A stretch of 64,000 nt of DNA from Anaerohalosphaera lusitana (GTDB lineage: Bacteria; Planctomycetota; Phycisphaerae; Sedimentisphaerales; Anaerohalosphaeraceae): positions 434,001 to 498,000 of the forward strand of contig NZ_CP019791.1 of the NCBI RefSeq assembly GCF_002007645.1, written 5' to 3'. The notes under the pieces were generated by a model. It was not told the DNA's origin. It did not search any database and worked only from the letters and a program-made list of their open reading frames with translations. Numbering within the stretch: the stretch's first letter is position 1; the number at the start of each line of letters is the position of its first letter. Both the position numbers and the translations under genes were made by a program. This document shows, one piece after another, positions 57,586 to 63,601 of this stretch.

Positions 57586-58578
57586 ATGCCCGCGAATCTG
57601 ACTCCTGATTATTTCAAGGCGGAGAAGTGGTTCAAGAGTGCCTCGACGGATGAAGAGCGGATCCTGGCACTGGAGGAGATGCTGCGTGTGATACCCAAGC
57701 ACAAGGGTACCGATCACATGCGGGCGGATCTGCGCAAAAAGCTCAGCAAGCTTCGAACAGCAGTCGAAGAGGGCGGCAAAAAGGGCGGCAAGCGCACGGA
57801 CATTTTTCACGTTCCGAAAAACGGCGCGGGTCAGCTCGTACTCGTGGGCACGCCCAACTGCGGCAAGAGCTCGGTCGTCGCGGCGGTTTCGAAAGCGTCG
57901 GTGAACGTGACGGATTTTCCGTTCGCGACGCAGACACCTGTGCCGGGCATGATGTATCACGAGGACGTTCAGATCGAGATCGTGGATATGCCGCCGATCA
58001 CGCCAGACTACGCGCCCGCGGGCATGGTCAACACCTACCGCAACTGTGACATCATCGGCATCGTGATCGACGTCGCTGCCGACCCGCTCGAACAGATGGA
58101 GGTCTGCACTGAGTATTTGCAGTCGCACCGGCTTCTGCCTGATGAGAATACCGATGAGCAGGACGAGCAGGGTAACCGGCTGGCTCGCAAGACGATCGTG
58201 ATATGCACCAAGATCGATGCCGCACCGGACGGGACGATCGAGACGCTGGCGGAACTGACCGAGCGTGATTTCGAGTACCTGCCGTTTTCCGCGCACACGG
58301 GCGAAGGACTGCACGAAATGGTAGCACGCGTTTTTGAGCTACTCAACGTCGTACGCGTCTACGCGAAAAAGCCAGGCAAGGAGCCGGACATGAAAGAGCC
58401 GTTCACGCTTGACAAGGGTTCGACAGTGGAGGACCTTGCGTTTACGATCCATCGTGAGCTTGCGGAAAAGCTGCAGAGCGCGCGTGCATGGAACGCGCCG
58501 GACATTCACGACGGCCAGAACGTGCAGAAGACACACGAGCTGACCGACAAGGAGATCATAGAGCTGCACTTCGCGTGA
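57586..58578 (+). CDS. Obg/DRG-like GTPase with TGS domain
   Basis: The 330-residue protein has a helical N-terminus (1-70) and a G domain with P-loop GTPNCGKSS (88-96) and the switch threonine region DFPFATQTPVPGMM. The G3 element is VDMPPI (Asp134), where typical GTPases have DxxG. G4 is CTKID instead of NKxD. A C-terminal TGS domain (about 260-330, FTLDKGSTVEDLAFTIHREL) completes it. The layout recalls archaeal/eukaryal DRG and bacterial Obg relatives that act on ribosomes. The degenerate G3 is a clear oddity. AGGGAT precedes the ATG. It follows the leu terminator and has its own unit. Confidence 0.85.
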   Translation: MPANLTPDYFKAEKWFKSASTDEERILALEEMLRVIPKHKGTDHMRADLRKKLSKLRTAVEEGGKKGGKRTDIFHVPKNGAGQLVLVGTPNCGKSSVVAAVSKASVNVTDFPFATQTPVPGMMYHEDVQIEIVDMPPITPDYAPAGMVNTYRNCDIIGIVIDVAADPLEQMEVCTEYLQSHRLLPDENTDEQDEQGNRLARKTIVICTKIDAAPDGTIETLAELTERDFEYLPFSAHTGEGLHEMVARVFELLNVVRVYAKKPGKEPDMKEPFTLDKGSTVEDLAFTIHRELAEKLQSARAWNAPDIHDGQNVQKTHELTDKEIIELHFA

Positions 58579-58665: not shown

Positions 58666-58857
58666 ATGGAATGCAAAAAAGAGAAGAATCTGGACTTCTG
58701 TAACTGTTCATATCCCTGCGGCACCAAGGGTGTGTGTTGTGACTGTCTGCATAAACATCTTCGCTCGAAACAGCTTCCCGCCTGCTGTTTCCCGGACGAA
58801 GTCGAAAAGACATACGACCGCAGCTTCGACGCATTCGCAAGGGCATGGGGATTGTAA
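58666..58857 (+). CDS. Small cysteine-rich protein, DUF6485 type
   Basis: The 63-residue product contains nine cysteines at positions 3, 12, 14, 18, 24, 25, 27, 40 and 41 (pattern CNC, C, CCDC, CC), which suggests a metal-binding fold. It matches the small uncharacterised family I know as DUF6485, found mainly in anaerobes. GAGAGG six bases before the ATG at 58666 fixes the start; an in-frame ATG at 58648 is less favoured. It is followed by a strong terminator. No function is known. Confidence 0.8.
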   Translation: MECKKEKNLDFCNCSYPCGTKGVCCDCLHKHLRSKQLPACCFPDEVEKTYDRSFDAFARAWGL

Positions 58858-58969: not shown

Positions 58970-59731
58970 TTACGACGGCACCTTCAGTAAATCGGTCGGA
59001 CGTGCCAGTGCGTCTTCGGGCAGCTTGGCCAGCAGCGCCTTGATCTCTTCGTAATAGCCGATGTCCTCAGGCGCATGTGCATCCGAGCCGTAGATCAGCT
59101 TCACGCCTGCCGCGTGTCCTATCTCAAATATGCGGTACCACTGCTGCCGATAGTAATCCGACAGACGATACGCGGTCAGCTCGTTAAGTTCCCAGGCGGT
59201 ATTATTCTTCGCGCTGACCGGGGCGACCTCTTCGAATATCGCGAGAATGTCCTCGTAGTGCGAATCCAGATCGAGCGACGAACCGATCATTCTACCCGGA
59301 TGGCCGATCGCGTGGACGTGCTTATCCGCCGCCAGGCCCAGCAATGTTGTTCGCCAACGCTCAAGCAATACTTCCGGCTCGAGTGGATTGTCGTCCGGAG
59401 TCTCCGCGAACTCACCAACACCCGGCACATAATGCAAACTCGCCAGAACATAGTCGAGCTGTGAAATGCGATCCGTTATCAGCGTACCGTCGAAGTGATC
59501 CGGATCGACGTCAACTTCCGCGCCGACCAGCACGGTGCAGTCCGAAGTGGTTCGCTCAACCTCATCGCGTATCTTGTCGATCAGTTCGAGATCCTCCTCG
59601 ACGAAGATATGGTCCGTGATGCAGATCGTCTCCAGCCCCAGCTCGTCCGCCCGCTCGAGTATCACCGGTACGGTCATGCCCGGCGCGTGGCCGCAGTACT
59701 CTGTATGTATGTGCATATCATAATTGATCAT
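58970..59731 (-). CDS. PHP-domain phosphoesterase, histidinol-phosphatase-like
   Basis: The 253-residue protein has the PHP metal motifs MHIHTEYCGHAPG (HxHxxxxGH-like) near the N-terminus, CITDHIF, GAEVDVDP, ASLHYVPG, and YGSDAHAPEDIG near the end. These are ligands of a trinuclear metal centre that hydrolyses phosphoesters. It could be a histidinol phosphatase, but no his genes are near; its gene overlaps an isomerase gene by 14 bases, so a sugar-phosphate substrate is as likely (inference). The open frame runs back to 59884; the ATG at 59731 gives the right N-terminus. Confidence 0.87.
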   Translation of the reverse strand: MINYDMHIHTEYCGHAPGMTVPVILERADELGLETICITDHIFVEEDLELIDKIRDEVERTTSDCTVLVGAEVDVDPDHFDGTLITDRISQLDYVLASLHYVPGVGEFAETPDDNPLEPEVLLERWRTTLLGLAADKHVHAIGHPGRMIGSSLDLDSHYEDILAIFEEVAPVSAKNNTAWELNELTAYRLSDYYRQQWYRIFEIGHAAGVKLIYGSDAHAPEDIGYYEEIKALLAKLPEDALARPTDLLKVPS

Positions 59732-60551
59732 AGGTCCGCGTCTCCTGCTTTTGGTATACAGATTGTTCTGCAACCATTTTAGCAAAGTTTCGCAATCCGT
59801 GAAAACAATTATCCAGAAAAACTCTCGGCGGCAGCTCCCTGTCACGCGTAAACACTTCGAGCATAAGCGGCCCGGCATACTCACAACGGCTTAGCGTCTC
59901 GGCCAGAAACGGCCAATCGTAATTCCCCTCGCCGATCGGACTGTGCCAGTCCATGATCCCGCGATTATCCGACAGGTGTGTTATCGACATTCTCTCCGCC
60001 CAGTCTACAGCGATCTGCCCGGCCGGCTCGCCCCAGACATTGTCATGCCCCGTATCGTAACAGAACGAAACCGCAGGCGAATCGATCTGATCGAGCACCG
60101 CGTCCAGCATTTCGATATGTCGTGTGTTTTCGAATGCAATGTCCACACCGACGTTTTCGGCAAACTCCGCCAGTTGGCGCAACGTATCCAGACCATGACC
60201 GTTCGGCTGTACATACTTATTACCCACCGAAAGATGCATCACCATTTTGCCGATGTCGTGTCGTGCGCAGTCCTCCAGGCATTCACGGCAGTAGTCGACA
60301 TACCTCTGGCGGCGCGATTTCTCCCTGCTCCACAACGCCTTCGCGCCGCGGTAAGGGATGTGTACGTTGTCCAGCTCCAGGCCATGATCGCGTACGATCC
60401 GCGGCCGATCCTTCAGCGGCTCTGCGCCCTTGGCAAATTCGTGCCACCACAGCCCGGTCATCTCAAAGCCCGCCTGCCGTATCAGCTTGACACGCGTGGT
60501 CAGGCTAAGCCTATAGCCGAAGAATGAGAATATACCCAGCTTATGCCGCAC
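59718..60551 (-). CDS. Sugar phosphate isomerase/epimerase family protein
   Basis: The 277-residue protein reads as a xylose-isomerase-like TIM barrel: LGIFSFFGYRLSLTTRVKLIRQAGF opens it, VGVDIAFENTRH and SFCYDTGHDNVW hold the metal-binding Glu and Asp/His, and ITHLSDN and LMLEVF follow. Members interconvert sugars or act as AP-endonuclease IV relatives. The start is a GTG with GAGG six bases upstream. It overlaps the MFS gene upstream by 11 bases and the PHP gene downstream by 14 bases, so all are one transcriptional unit. Confidence 0.88.
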   Translation of the reverse strand: MRHKLGIFSFFGYRLSLTTRVKLIRQAGFEMTGLWWHEFAKGAEPLKDRPRIVRDHGLELDNVHIPYRGAKALWSREKSRRQRYVDYCRECLEDCARHDIGKMVMHLSVGNKYVQPNGHGLDTLRQLAEFAENVGVDIAFENTRHIEMLDAVLDQIDSPAVSFCYDTGHDNVWGEPAGQIAVDWAERMSITHLSDNRGIMDWHSPIGEGNYDWPFLAETLSRCEYAGPLMLEVFTRDRELPPRVFLDNCFHGLRNFAKMVAEQSVYQKQETRTYDQL

Positions 60552-61773
60552 TGGTCGCCTCGTTTTTGATTTTCATTTTCGCCTTGCCCCGTGCCGCAAG
60601 CATCAGCGCTGCGACGCCCGCGATCACGTAGCCGATGGGCGTATACCAGAGCACGATCTGTATGCCGAACTCCTCGGCGACCGGCCCGAGCACCTGCAGC
60701 GGTACTGCTGCCAGGCCCCACGCGCCGCCGACAACCAGACCCATCCGCAGGCCAAGCGTCAGGCCCTTCGCGCTTCGCGCCATCGTCACAACCAGCGGAT
60801 ACGCCGACGAAGACAGAAAGCCCGCAGCAGCCAGCAGAATGACCGCATAGCCGTTGTCCATCATCCCAAGATACGCAAACAGAAAAGGCAGACCCGCGAG
60901 GTGCAAAACCGCGCACAGTTTCATCTCACCTTTGCGGTGCGCGATCGGCGCCCACAGGAACGAGCCTATCGCAGAACCGCCGCCGTAGATCAGTGTCGCG
61001 ATACCGCCGTAAGAAAGTGCATAGCCAAGCTCCTCCAGACGCGACGGCAGAAGCGAACAGAACACCGTCGTCGCCGTCGTCGCGGGTATTGCTATCATCA
61101 TCAACGGCCAGAAGGGAAGCTGCGTTACCTTCGCGACTTTCTGTTCAACGACCTCGGTCGGCGTTTTCTCTACGGCGAGACGAACCCGCAGCAGATATAT
61201 CGCAGCAATGCCTGCCGCTGATCCGAGGCAGAGAAAGTACAGCCCCTTGAAGCCAAACGCCTCGACCAACAGCGTCGCGATGTAGCCGCCCGAGGCAAAG
61301 CCCATGAAACCGCCCGCCATGAAAACAGCCGTACTCATCGCCGGCTGAATGCCATCGAGTCTATGCACCGCGCGCAGCCCCTCCGGATGCACCATCGCAA
61401 GACCGCTGGCCGCTATTATCACAAGCAGTATTAAAGTTAGCTTGATGTATATGCTCGCCTCGACGCCCGCTTCCTGCGCTGGAAATGCAGCGAACGAACA
61501 CAGTACCGCCCCCAGAGCAAGGCCTATGTACATCAGCAGCGGCTTGTCCTTTTGTGCCCGCACGTGTCCGGTGCCGATCTGCATGATGTTACAGCTTATG
61601 TAAAGCGTGCTGATAAGTGCAACGCCCATCGTAAGCGAGATATTGAACTTGTCGCGCACGGCAGGCAGGATCGCGGGCATCATCCCCGCGTAAACGTCCA
61701 CCAGGAAATGTGCGCCGCTGACAGCGAGGAGCTGACCCCACTGCAGACGAAGGCTCGGTTTGTTATCGATCAT
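60541..61773 (-). CDS. Major facilitator superfamily transporter
   Basis: The 410-residue protein has about 12 transmembrane segments. The start of helix 1 (GQLLAVSGAHFLVDVYAGMMPAI) is the FHxxxD-like opening of the fosmidomycin-resistance/YfnA-type MFS subgroup. Substrate unknown. The gene overlaps the ABC ATPase gene upstream and the isomerase gene downstream by 11 bases each, which suggests import or export of the metabolite processed by its operon partners (inference). GGGA precedes the ATG. Confidence 0.9.
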   Translation of the reverse strand: MIDNKPSLRLQWGQLLAVSGAHFLVDVYAGMMPAILPAVRDKFNISLTMGVALISTLYISCNIMQIGTGHVRAQKDKPLLMYIGLALGAVLCSFAAFPAQEAGVEASIYIKLTLILLVIIAASGLAMVHPEGLRAVHRLDGIQPAMSTAVFMAGGFMGFASGGYIATLLVEAFGFKGLYFLCLGSAAGIAAIYLLRVRLAVEKTPTEVVEQKVAKVTQLPFWPLMMIAIPATTATTVFCSLLPSRLEELGYALSYGGIATLIYGGGSAIGSFLWAPIAHRKGEMKLCAVLHLAGLPFLFAYLGMMDNGYAVILLAAAGFLSSSAYPLVVTMARSAKGLTLGLRMGLVVGGAWGLAAVPLQVLGPVAEEFGIQIVLWYTPIGYVIAGVAALMLAARGKAKMKIKNEATSAA

Positions 61774-62563
61774 TGGTTTTCCCGTTTATGTTCAGCGACC
61801 AGCCGTGGCCGGTGCGCGTTACTTCACAATCACAGTTAAAAAGTTCGCCGAGCGTATCACTGTTGATGTGCTTTTCACTCGACCCGCTCGCCAGGCAGCT
61901 TCCGTCCTTGAGCATGAAGACGCTGTCCAGCCAGGGATGTATTTCTTCGATATGGTGGGTAACGAAAATTATCGCCGGCGCATCATCACGGCCCGCCATC
62001 TCGCCGAGGTCGCAGAGAAAATCGTGCCTTGCCGCGGGATCCAGCCCAACGCAAGGCTCATCCAGCACCAGCAGTTTCGGCTCGTTCACAAGCGCCCGCG
62101 AGATAAGTACCCGCTGACGTTCGCCCTGGCTCAATGTCGCAAATTTCCTTTCGGCCAGATGCGCAACGTTTACAGCTTCCAACGTCCTGCGACCGCGAAC
62201 AGTCTCAGCTTCCGTGAACTGCCGATACAATCCGAAGGACGCATCGATCCCGGACATCGCGATTTCCAAAGGCGTGTCTAAAGTCGGCACACGGTCACCC
62301 ATCGACGAGCTTACATAGCCGACCGATTTTCGCAGTTCGCGGATCGCGCAGTCGCCGAACTTCTCGCCGAATACCGTCACGCTGCCAGTCGTCGGCCATG
62401 CGTAGCCCAGAACTATATTCAGCAGCGTCGTCTTGCCCGCACCGTTACCGCCGAGCAGCGCCCAGTTTCGGCCCGGCTCGATGCGCCACGAAACGTCGGA
62501 AAGTATAACGCTGTCTTTCCTGCGGAATGTCACACTGTCAATATCTATGATCGGCAAAGCCAT
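61763..62563 (-). CDS. ABC transporter ATP-binding protein without a neighbouring permease
   Basis: The 266-residue ATPase has Walker A GGNGAGKTT (38-46), the signature LSQGERQRV, Walker B LLVLDEPCVGLD and switch His in VTHHIEE. It resembles ModF/YfiL-like stand-alone or iron-siderophore-type ATPases. The TTG at 62569 extends it by two codons; I prefer the ATG at 62563. No membrane or solute-binding partner is in the operon, which continues with an MFS carrier, an isomerase and a PHP hydrolase. A role in translation or regulation, as for some soluble ABC proteins, cannot be excluded. Confidence 0.88.
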   Translation of the reverse strand: MALPIIDIDSVTFRRKDSVILSDVSWRIEPGRNWALLGGNGAGKTTLLNIVLGYAWPTTGSVTVFGEKFGDCAIRELRKSVGYVSSSMGDRVPTLDTPLEIAMSGIDASFGLYRQFTEAETVRGRRTLEAVNVAHLAERKFATLSQGERQRVLISRALVNEPKLLVLDEPCVGLDPAARHDFLCDLGEMAGRDDAPAIIFVTHHIEEIHPWLDSVFMLKDGSCLASGSSEKHINSDTLGELFNCDCEVTRTGHGWSLNINGKTNDR

Positions 62564-62631: not shown

Positions 62632-62666
62632 CAAAAAAACGAAGGGCACCCAAAATGGATGCCCTC
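62632..62666 (-). terminator. Intrinsic terminator of purC
   Basis: GGGCACC and GGATGCCC pair around AAAA-rich bases; on the minus strand the stem leads through TTCG into seven T residues. Confidence 0.85.
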
Positions 62667-62707
62667 CGGATAATACCATACTAAATTTTGCAAACCAGAA
62701 CTACAGG

Positions 62708-63601
62708 CTACTTCTGAAATTCCTGGCCGGTCAGTTTTTCGTATGCTTCGATGTACTTGGCCGAGGTCTTTTCGATGATGTCCGTCGGCAGCTCGATGCC
62801 GGGCCCGTCCTTGTCGAAATCGGTCTCTTCGAGATAGTTACGAACGAACTGCTTGTCGAACGATTCCTGGTTCTTGCCCGGCTCGTACTTATCCGCAGGC
62901 CAGAATCGTGACGAATCAGGCGTGAATACTTCATCGATCAGGATGATCTTGCCGTCGATCAGGCCGAACTCGAATTTCGTGTCCGCAAGGATGATACCCT
63001 TGGACTCGGCATAATCTCTGGCCTTTTTGAAGATCGCCAGGCTTGTGTCTCGTACAAAGTTGGCCTTGTCTTCGCCGATGATATCGACAGCCTTATCGAA
63101 CGAGATGTTCTCGTCATGCAGACCCTGCTCAGCCTTGGTTGAAGGCGTGAAGATCGGTTCGGGCAGCTTGTCACACTGTTTGAGTCCCGCCGGCAGCTCG
63201 ATGCCGCATACCGTCCGGCTCTTCTGGTATTCCTTCCAGCCGGAACCAGCCAGATAACCACGAACGATGCACTCGACGGGCAGAACCTCGGTCTTTTTGA
63301 CCATCATCGACCTGCCGCGAAGCTGGTCGGGGTAGTTGCAGAACGGAGCGGGGAAATCTTCGACGTCCATCGACACAACGTGGTTGTCGATAGTATCCGA
63401 AAGAAAGTCGAACCAGAACTTCGATATCTGTGTAAGCACCTGTCCTTTATATGGTATGCCGGTTTTGAGCACAACGTCGAATGCGCTGAGCCTGTCCGAG
63501 GCGACAAAGATCAGATGATCGCCCGCATCATAGATGTCGCGGACCTTGCCGTGCTTTACCGGTACGCCAGGGATGTCGGTCTGTAAAATTACATTGGCCA
63601 T
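62708..63601 (-). CDS. purC: Phosphoribosylaminoimidazole-succinocarboxamide synthase
   Basis: PurC (SAICAR synthetase) joins CAIR and aspartate with ATP, the step before PurB acts. The 297-residue length fits the longer, yeast-like form. Recognised parts are GKVRDIYDAGDHLIFVASDRLSAFDV (ATP loop), VECIVRGYLAGSGWKEYQKS (the family signature) and LADTKFEFGLIDGKIILIDEVFTPDSSRFW (signature 2). GGGAG precedes the ATG. It stands alone, with a terminator at 62632-62666, far from purB. Confidence 0.96.
   Translation of the reverse strand: MANVILQTDIPGVPVKHGKVRDIYDAGDHLIFVASDRLSAFDVVLKTGIPYKGQVLTQISKFWFDFLSDTIDNHVVSMDVEDFPAPFCNYPDQLRGRSMMVKKTEVLPVECIVRGYLAGSGWKEYQKSRTVCGIELPAGLKQCDKLPEPIFTPSTKAEQGLHDENISFDKAVDIIGEDKANFVRDTSLAIFKKARDYAESKGIILADTKFEFGLIDGKIILIDEVFTPDSSRFWPADKYEPGKNQESFDKQFVRNYLEETDFDKDGPGIELPTDIIEKTSAKYIEAYEKLTGQEFQK

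Follow-up and report, generated by a model that had tools for sequence, protein, structure and literature searches.

An overlapping gene cluster for an ABC ATPase, an MFS carrier, a TIM-barrel protein and a PHP phosphoesterase in Anaerohalosphaera lusitana, and its partial recurrence in relatives

The question raised by four overlapping genes of Anaerohalosphaera lusitana is whether they encode a new metabolic pathway or form a stable gene cluster of another kind. They lie in a window of 64,000 nucleotides (the whole stretch of DNA analyzed, positions 434001-498000 of a genome of 4,250,973 bases in a single contig), all on the minus strand, and span window positions 58970-62563 with successive overlaps of 11, 11 and 14 nucleotides. 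In reading order they encode an ABC ATPase (ABC), a major facilitator superfamily carrier (MFS), a TIM-barrel protein (TIM) and a PHP phosphoesterase (PHP). The overlaps had been reported in a preliminary description and are borne out by the frame coordinates. The same description had seen in these genes an unfamiliar set and a candidate for an undescribed metabolic module. The overlapping set proved real, and three of its members recur together in relatives, but the families are known ones and a new pathway is not evident. Each of the four proteins scores above its Pfam gathering cut-off (ABC_tran 103, MFS_1 54, AP_endonuc_2 110 and PHP 60 bits).

The explanation that we hold to be a little better than evenly probable is an operon of overlapping genes from known families that is specific to the lineage and has a conserved place in the planctomycete order of the window. 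Comparison among relatives shows the recurrent layout purC-(ABC)-(MFS)-PHP-(aroK), often facing genes for DUF6485 and a GTPase as well as leu genes, with members present or missing singly. Since the genes overlap, their translation is probably coupled, and they may share a transcript. The most likely role of MFS is the export of some small compound, as with the E. coli fosmidomycin exporter Fsr, and ABC is probably a soluble ATPase and not the engine of an importer. PHP would act as a metal-dependent phosphatase of the HisJ/YcdX type, as its motif and fold suggest, and possibly as a histidinol-phosphatase. TIM would be a further metal enzyme, a hydrolase or an epimerase; in a related family its gene takes the place of the PHP gene. 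The set is explicable without any single common pathway. This tells a stable gene cluster apart from a supposed new pathway, and the MFS-PHP pair from the patchy TIM. Literature searches on PHP and shikimate kinase in Phycisphaerae, on planctomycete Fsr-type MFS carriers and on ModF returned, among the papers listed, no description of the cluster, which, going by these searches only, appears undescribed.

Recurrence of the gene order in relatives

Short overlaps as such are not exceptional in the window, where other predicted gene pairs overlap by 1-50 nucleotides, some of them perhaps involving spurious genes. It is the recurrence in relatives, rather than the short overlaps, that exceeds chance. 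The comparison set comprised 118 genomes including that of the window, and neighbours were counted on a tblastn map from which genome G027 and the PHP contig of G007 were left out. Matches to MFS were found in 56 genomes, the window's included, and matches to PHP at E 1e-20 or better in 33. Both occur in 24 genomes, again with the window's, and in 21 of these they are neighbours on the same strand, 20 times directly and in the window with TIM between them. In the remaining three, MFS and PHP lie on separate contigs (G005, G051) or on contigs that both end there (G007). The row ABC-MFS-PHP is present in 12 genomes besides the window, from seven genera that all belong to the same family as the window (G006, G008, G009, G011, G012, G013, G015, G018, G020, G021, G033 and G059). 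In 11 of these 12 purC is located directly upstream; for the twelfth, in G020, the contig starts at this point. G029 has ABC before PHP with no MFS between them. Identity of the window's proteins to aligned relatives is 35-50% for MFS (ten relatives), 42-54% for PHP (seven) and 48-52% for ABC (five).

The MFS-PHP junction was measured in 13 of the 20 relative pairs, with start codons in the relatives being longest-frame calls: ten overlap by 4-34 nucleotides and one by 56, and two are separated by gaps of 53 and 124 nucleotides. On the other side of PHP, aroK follows directly in 11 of the 31 contexts read (G001, G005, G015, G016, G023, G024, G030, G031, G032, G039 and G117); it also follows in G029, G059 and G104, but there genes intervene or are broken. 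In G034 (L205 3444-4170) the PHP gene is present as two overlapping pieces, owing to a frameshift or an assembly error.

The search for the four-gene order in other genomes that had been proposed thus gave a divided result: ABC-MFS-PHP recurs in 12 genomes, whereas the set including TIM was found in no other locus read; for the five weaker matches from the class, the reading covered only some 1.5 kb of flanking sequence in either direction. In the window's family, ABC, MFS and PHP did not show the dispersal that the preliminary description had named as its refutation. Chance adjacency is thus contradicted for these three by the 21 neighbouring pairs and the 12 repeated rows in seven genera, and as an account of the cluster it is extremely improbable. 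Membership does vary between genomes, and for TIM alone, which occurs in one such cluster only, chance adjacency is conceivable.

Several observations weigh against the favoured explanation. The cluster is loose, as MFS is unmatched in nine of the 33 genomes with PHP, and among the 34 MFS genomes from other families only two have PHP. The persistent MFS-PHP adjacency may instead reflect joint action of the two proteins. In nine of 31 PHP contexts, from about three lineages, the cluster contains or adjoins glycosidase genes. Five genomes that belong to a single genus (G001, G016, G024, G030 and G032) have an arabinofuranosidase-type gene immediately upstream of PHP. Three such genes stand between ABC and MFS in G023 (L092 1566-8058), and the same three clusters occur at that place in G026, where the first gene was scanned. 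A GH18-type gene separates PHP from aroK in G029 and G059. These neighbours suggest a sugar-related role in some lineages. Transcription signals add to these points. The interval between purC and ABC contains a terminator-like site and no promoter-like match in the signal scan, and promoter-like matches were located at 59776-59805, upstream of PHP; a single message of four genes is therefore insecure. In the same scan, terminator-like sites numbered two, compared with a mean of 5.7 in shuffles, and promoter-like matches seven, compared with 3.3.

The carrier, the ATPase and the phosphoesterase

The MFS profile was compared with three E. coli carriers, each a single-sequence template. The hhalign probability was 98.3 for Fsr over 354 columns, including the HPE motif, but 5.0 for the sugar-phosphate carrier UhpT over 62 columns, which gives no relation to UhpT, and 3.6 for MdfA. 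The earlier naming of this protein as an MFS carrier was confirmed, and among the three it is the Fsr-like one, with the better full-length match as judged by profile. Identity to Fsr (b0479, a fosmidomycin efflux pump) is 18%, and the window's MFS differs in standing beside PHP. A search of solved structures with the MFS profile returned weak matches only.

The ABC protein had been described as a lone ATPase without permease, which holds for the operon: no permease or binding protein is encoded beside it between purC and the GTPase gene, the stretch to which this search was confined. In BLASTP it is closest to E. coli ModF (b0760; 113 bits, 34% identity over 213 amino acids), followed by FecE (92 bits) and BtuD (46 bits), and thus appears nearest to ModF among the three ATPases compared. 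The leading NCBIfam models were those of a heme ABC ATPase (126) and ModF (125), with all displayed rows below their cut-offs. The likeness is to the second ABC half of ModF, which has two ABC domains, whereas the window's protein has one and is adjoined by no molybdate genes.

The fourth protein was correctly placed among the PHP phosphoesterases. H7, H9, H41, E72, H100, H144, D217 and H219 are invariant in all eight aligned PHP rows and include what we take to be the metal-binding residues of the motif. The predicted structure (pLDDT 90.7) has HisJ (2yxo) as its first fold match and YcdX (1m65) among the best, and shares the metal-motif residues with both. PHP is thus a HisJ/YcdX-like phosphoesterase in sequence and predicted fold. 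Its identity to these two proteins is 21-24%, however, and it falls below the cut-offs of the HisJ-type NCBIfam models listed, with 63 bits for hisJ_fam (TIGR01856) compared with 90.2.

MFS and PHP form the tightest pair of the cluster, adjacent in 21 of 24 genomes and often overlapping. Together with the resemblance of MFS to Fsr and the metal-hydrolase type residues of PHP and TIM, this would fit a system for export and detoxification, in which a toxic metabolite, phosphorylated or phosphonate-like, would be pumped out by MFS while its esters would be hydrolysed within the cell by PHP, in the window together with TIM. Such a system leaves no evident place for aroK, purC and ABC, nor does it agree with the PHP genomes in which MFS is unmatched, and we regard it as unlikely.

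PHP might instead be the histidinol-phosphate phosphatase of the cell, and the locus a loose biosynthetic neighbourhood for purines, histidine, aromatic compounds and leucine. HisJ as the best fold match points in this direction, as do purC, aroK and leu genes among the neighbours. The genome's own HAD protein with a histidinol-phosphatase domain match has its best scores with GmhB models, slightly short of the cut-offs (162 compared with 178, and 140 with 149.6), and reaches only 62 against the cut-off of 140 for the N-terminal HisB model. Two inositol-phosphatase-like proteins scored 178 and 119, both under the HisN cut-off of 275. These models thus assign no protein to the role of histidinol-phosphatase, and PHP is a candidate for it. 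However, PHP itself is below the HisJ cut-off, an inositol-phosphatase-like protein could serve instead, and among 79 genomes from other families four had a PHP match. The proposal is accordingly rated improbable, on a level with export and detoxification. A literature search on PHP-domain histidinol phosphate phosphatases in Planctomycetes found no paper; if PHP proved to be such an enzyme, an annotation gap would be filled for these planctomycetes. A GmhB-like phosphatase (L159 898-1953) has a long C-terminal extension, and the adjacent gene reads by eye like rfaE.

A separate aroK is often kept after PHP in relatives. The better of two shikimate kinase matches in the window's genome is fused to chorismate synthase in one frame of 536 residues (L207 409-2016, C1:3436266; SKI domain over the Pfam cut-off), and the second scores 22.2 bits, just above the cut-off. 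The fusion fits the absence of a separate aroK at the window locus.

Distribution and possible function of the TIM-barrel protein

Only in the window does TIM separate MFS from PHP; none of the other 20 MFS-PHP pairs read includes it. At E 0.001 it has matches in 18 of 59 genomes, the window's included; strong matches are limited to three genomes besides the window, all of family f2, and the others are at 4.8e-8 or weaker. Among 397 genomes of the class, nine including the window's have a match at 1e-25 or better. The order purC-TPR-TIM-aroK was found in G053, G057 and contig L096, with DUF6485 and leu genes opposite, and G041 has TPR-TIM without aroK following. A search at E 1e-20 did not find PHP in the f2 genomes that carry TIM. 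TIM therefore fills the place of PHP in the related family, and the window alone has both. Its base composition is unremarkable within the cluster, with a GC content at third codon positions of 0.651, compared with 0.659 for ABC and 0.689-0.749 for the remaining genes.

This pattern invites the idea that PHP and TIM, though unrelated, catalyse one and the same reaction or two consecutive ones and are interchangeable before aroK, and that together with MFS they destroy and expel a harmful phosphorylated metabolite as an undescribed system. We consider this a novel and quite improbable proposal; if the two did interchange, they would illustrate neatly how one enzyme can give way to another that is not related to it.

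Relatives of TIM were collected from 28 named loci, 22 of them in Bacillota. No MFS or PHP gene accompanies them in these loci and no partner is common to the loci; ABC matches of 23-33% occur at a distance from TIM in some. The ten neighbours scanned include a membrane dipeptidase, a pseudouridine synthase, an amidohydrolase and an FGGY kinase. In a tree built without four of the rows, one of them a duplicate of the window protein, and lacking L124 (the third CbiR above cut-off) and L150, which the profile did not catch, the window's TIM and its 28 relatives form one clade with a support of 100/100. Deep branches are weak, and the placement among the planctomycete copies is unsettled.

Eight of nine ligand columns, numbered by what we take to be the endonuclease IV ligands, are kept in all 29 rows of the TIM family, as they are in many other AP_endonuc_2 rows. 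The H69 column holds Y or F, and an invariant histidine (H64) is close by in the alignment (A3). TIM carries the E, D, H and E of a one-metal epimerase site plus further histidines; in contrast to TIM, E. coli FrlC and UlaE have no histidine at the columns of H109 and H182. The AlphaFold model of TIM has a mean pLDDT of 83.2, with five models ranging from 83.2 to 34.1, and as a prediction resolves the superfamily only. The best 50 of 387 fold matches (E up to 0.001) consist of epimerases and kindred barrel proteins, with ketose 3-epimerases nearest and no endonuclease IV among these 50. The solved protein nearest in sequence is MJ1311 (3wqo). These matches in fold and sequence, like the presence of the same columns in many other AP_endonuc_2 rows, weigh against a hydrolase, and TIM may be either a hydrolase or an epimerase. 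Of the claim that it is a TIM-barrel isomerase, the barrel family and the epimerase folds speak in favour, but residues at ligand columns of the hydrolase type are present too.

Ketose 3-epimerase folds would also suit the kind of module first proposed for these genes, which would take up and convert sugars, their phosphates or cyclitols. Enzymes that act on sugar phosphates occur in both the AP_endonuc_2 and the PHP family, and arabinofuranosidase- or GH18-type genes accompany the cluster in the nine contexts named above. However, MFS is Fsr-like and has no match to UhpT, the operon lacks an ABC permease, TIM is missing from the other MFS-PHP pairs, and neither the open reading frame list nor a Pfam scan places a glycosidase gene in the window's own cluster, such insertions being limited to about three lineages. 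The proposal is unlikely, if anything slightly more so than a histidinol-phosphatase. A sugar link may still be conceivable for the cluster, given the glycosidase neighbours.

The best NCBIfam match of TIM is CbiR (NF041277; 61 bits, E 1e-16), a cobamide remodelling phosphodiesterase (PMC7733943) with which it has the AP_endonuc_2 superfamily in common. That source gives adjacent cobamide genes for 80% of homologues. A role of TIM in cobamide remodelling was rejected on score, clade and neighbours, after searches of the window's own genome, the phylum and riboswitches and with the tree, and is very improbable. The match is below the CbiR cut-off of 105, and such weak matches are frequent, occurring in 243 of 392 genomes from the phylum and in 11 of 14 controls; the cut-off is passed in three of the 392, the window's genome not among them. 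A TIM relative of Clostridium peptidivorans matches fructoselysine epimerase best and not CbiR, both CbiR rows of the tree fall outside the TIM clade, and TIM is adjoined by MFS and PHP and no cobamide genes. One cobalamin riboswitch was found in the window's genome when 150 of 188 first-look candidates were scored. It is located at C1:2023229-2023447 (L033 8230-8448), has no evident B12 gene downstream as far as genes read by eye, and precedes a secreted-looking protein whose tail, also by eye, is PEP-CTERM-like. A second AP_endonuc_2 protein of the genome (L027 1426-2343, C1:2938800) scores 52 bits with the CbiR model, below the cut-off, and is unplaced in the tree.

Coordinates and flanking genes

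The positions of the four genes and their surroundings are listed in Table 1. The leu genes and the genes for DUF6485 and the TGS-domain GTPase face the four-gene set, and the latter two occupy the same place in several relatives on the tblastn map.

Table 1. Window coordinates of the cluster and adjacent features
Feature	Position	Strand	Remarks
ABC ATPase gene	61763-62563	minus	ATG start; TTG present 6 nt further out
MFS carrier gene	60541-61773	minus	ATG start
TIM-barrel gene	59718-60551	minus	AP_endonuc_2 family; GTG start; variably present in the cluster
PHP phosphoesterase gene	58970-59731	minus	ATG start
purC (SAICAR synthetase)	62708-63601	minus	groups with a relative matching SAICAR_synt; recurrent upstream neighbour
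DUF6485 small protein gene	58666-58857	plus	DUF6485 37 bits; convergent neighbour
TGS-domain GTPase gene	57586-58578	plus	MMR_HSR1 and TGS; convergent neighbour
Terminator-like site	62640-62668	minus	13-pair stem followed by seven T; between purC and ABC; consensus match only

Purine-rich stretches, read by eye as putative ribosome-binding sites, precede all four starts. Homology of TIM to its relatives begins at residue 4, so that a start later than the GTG would cut the conserved part.

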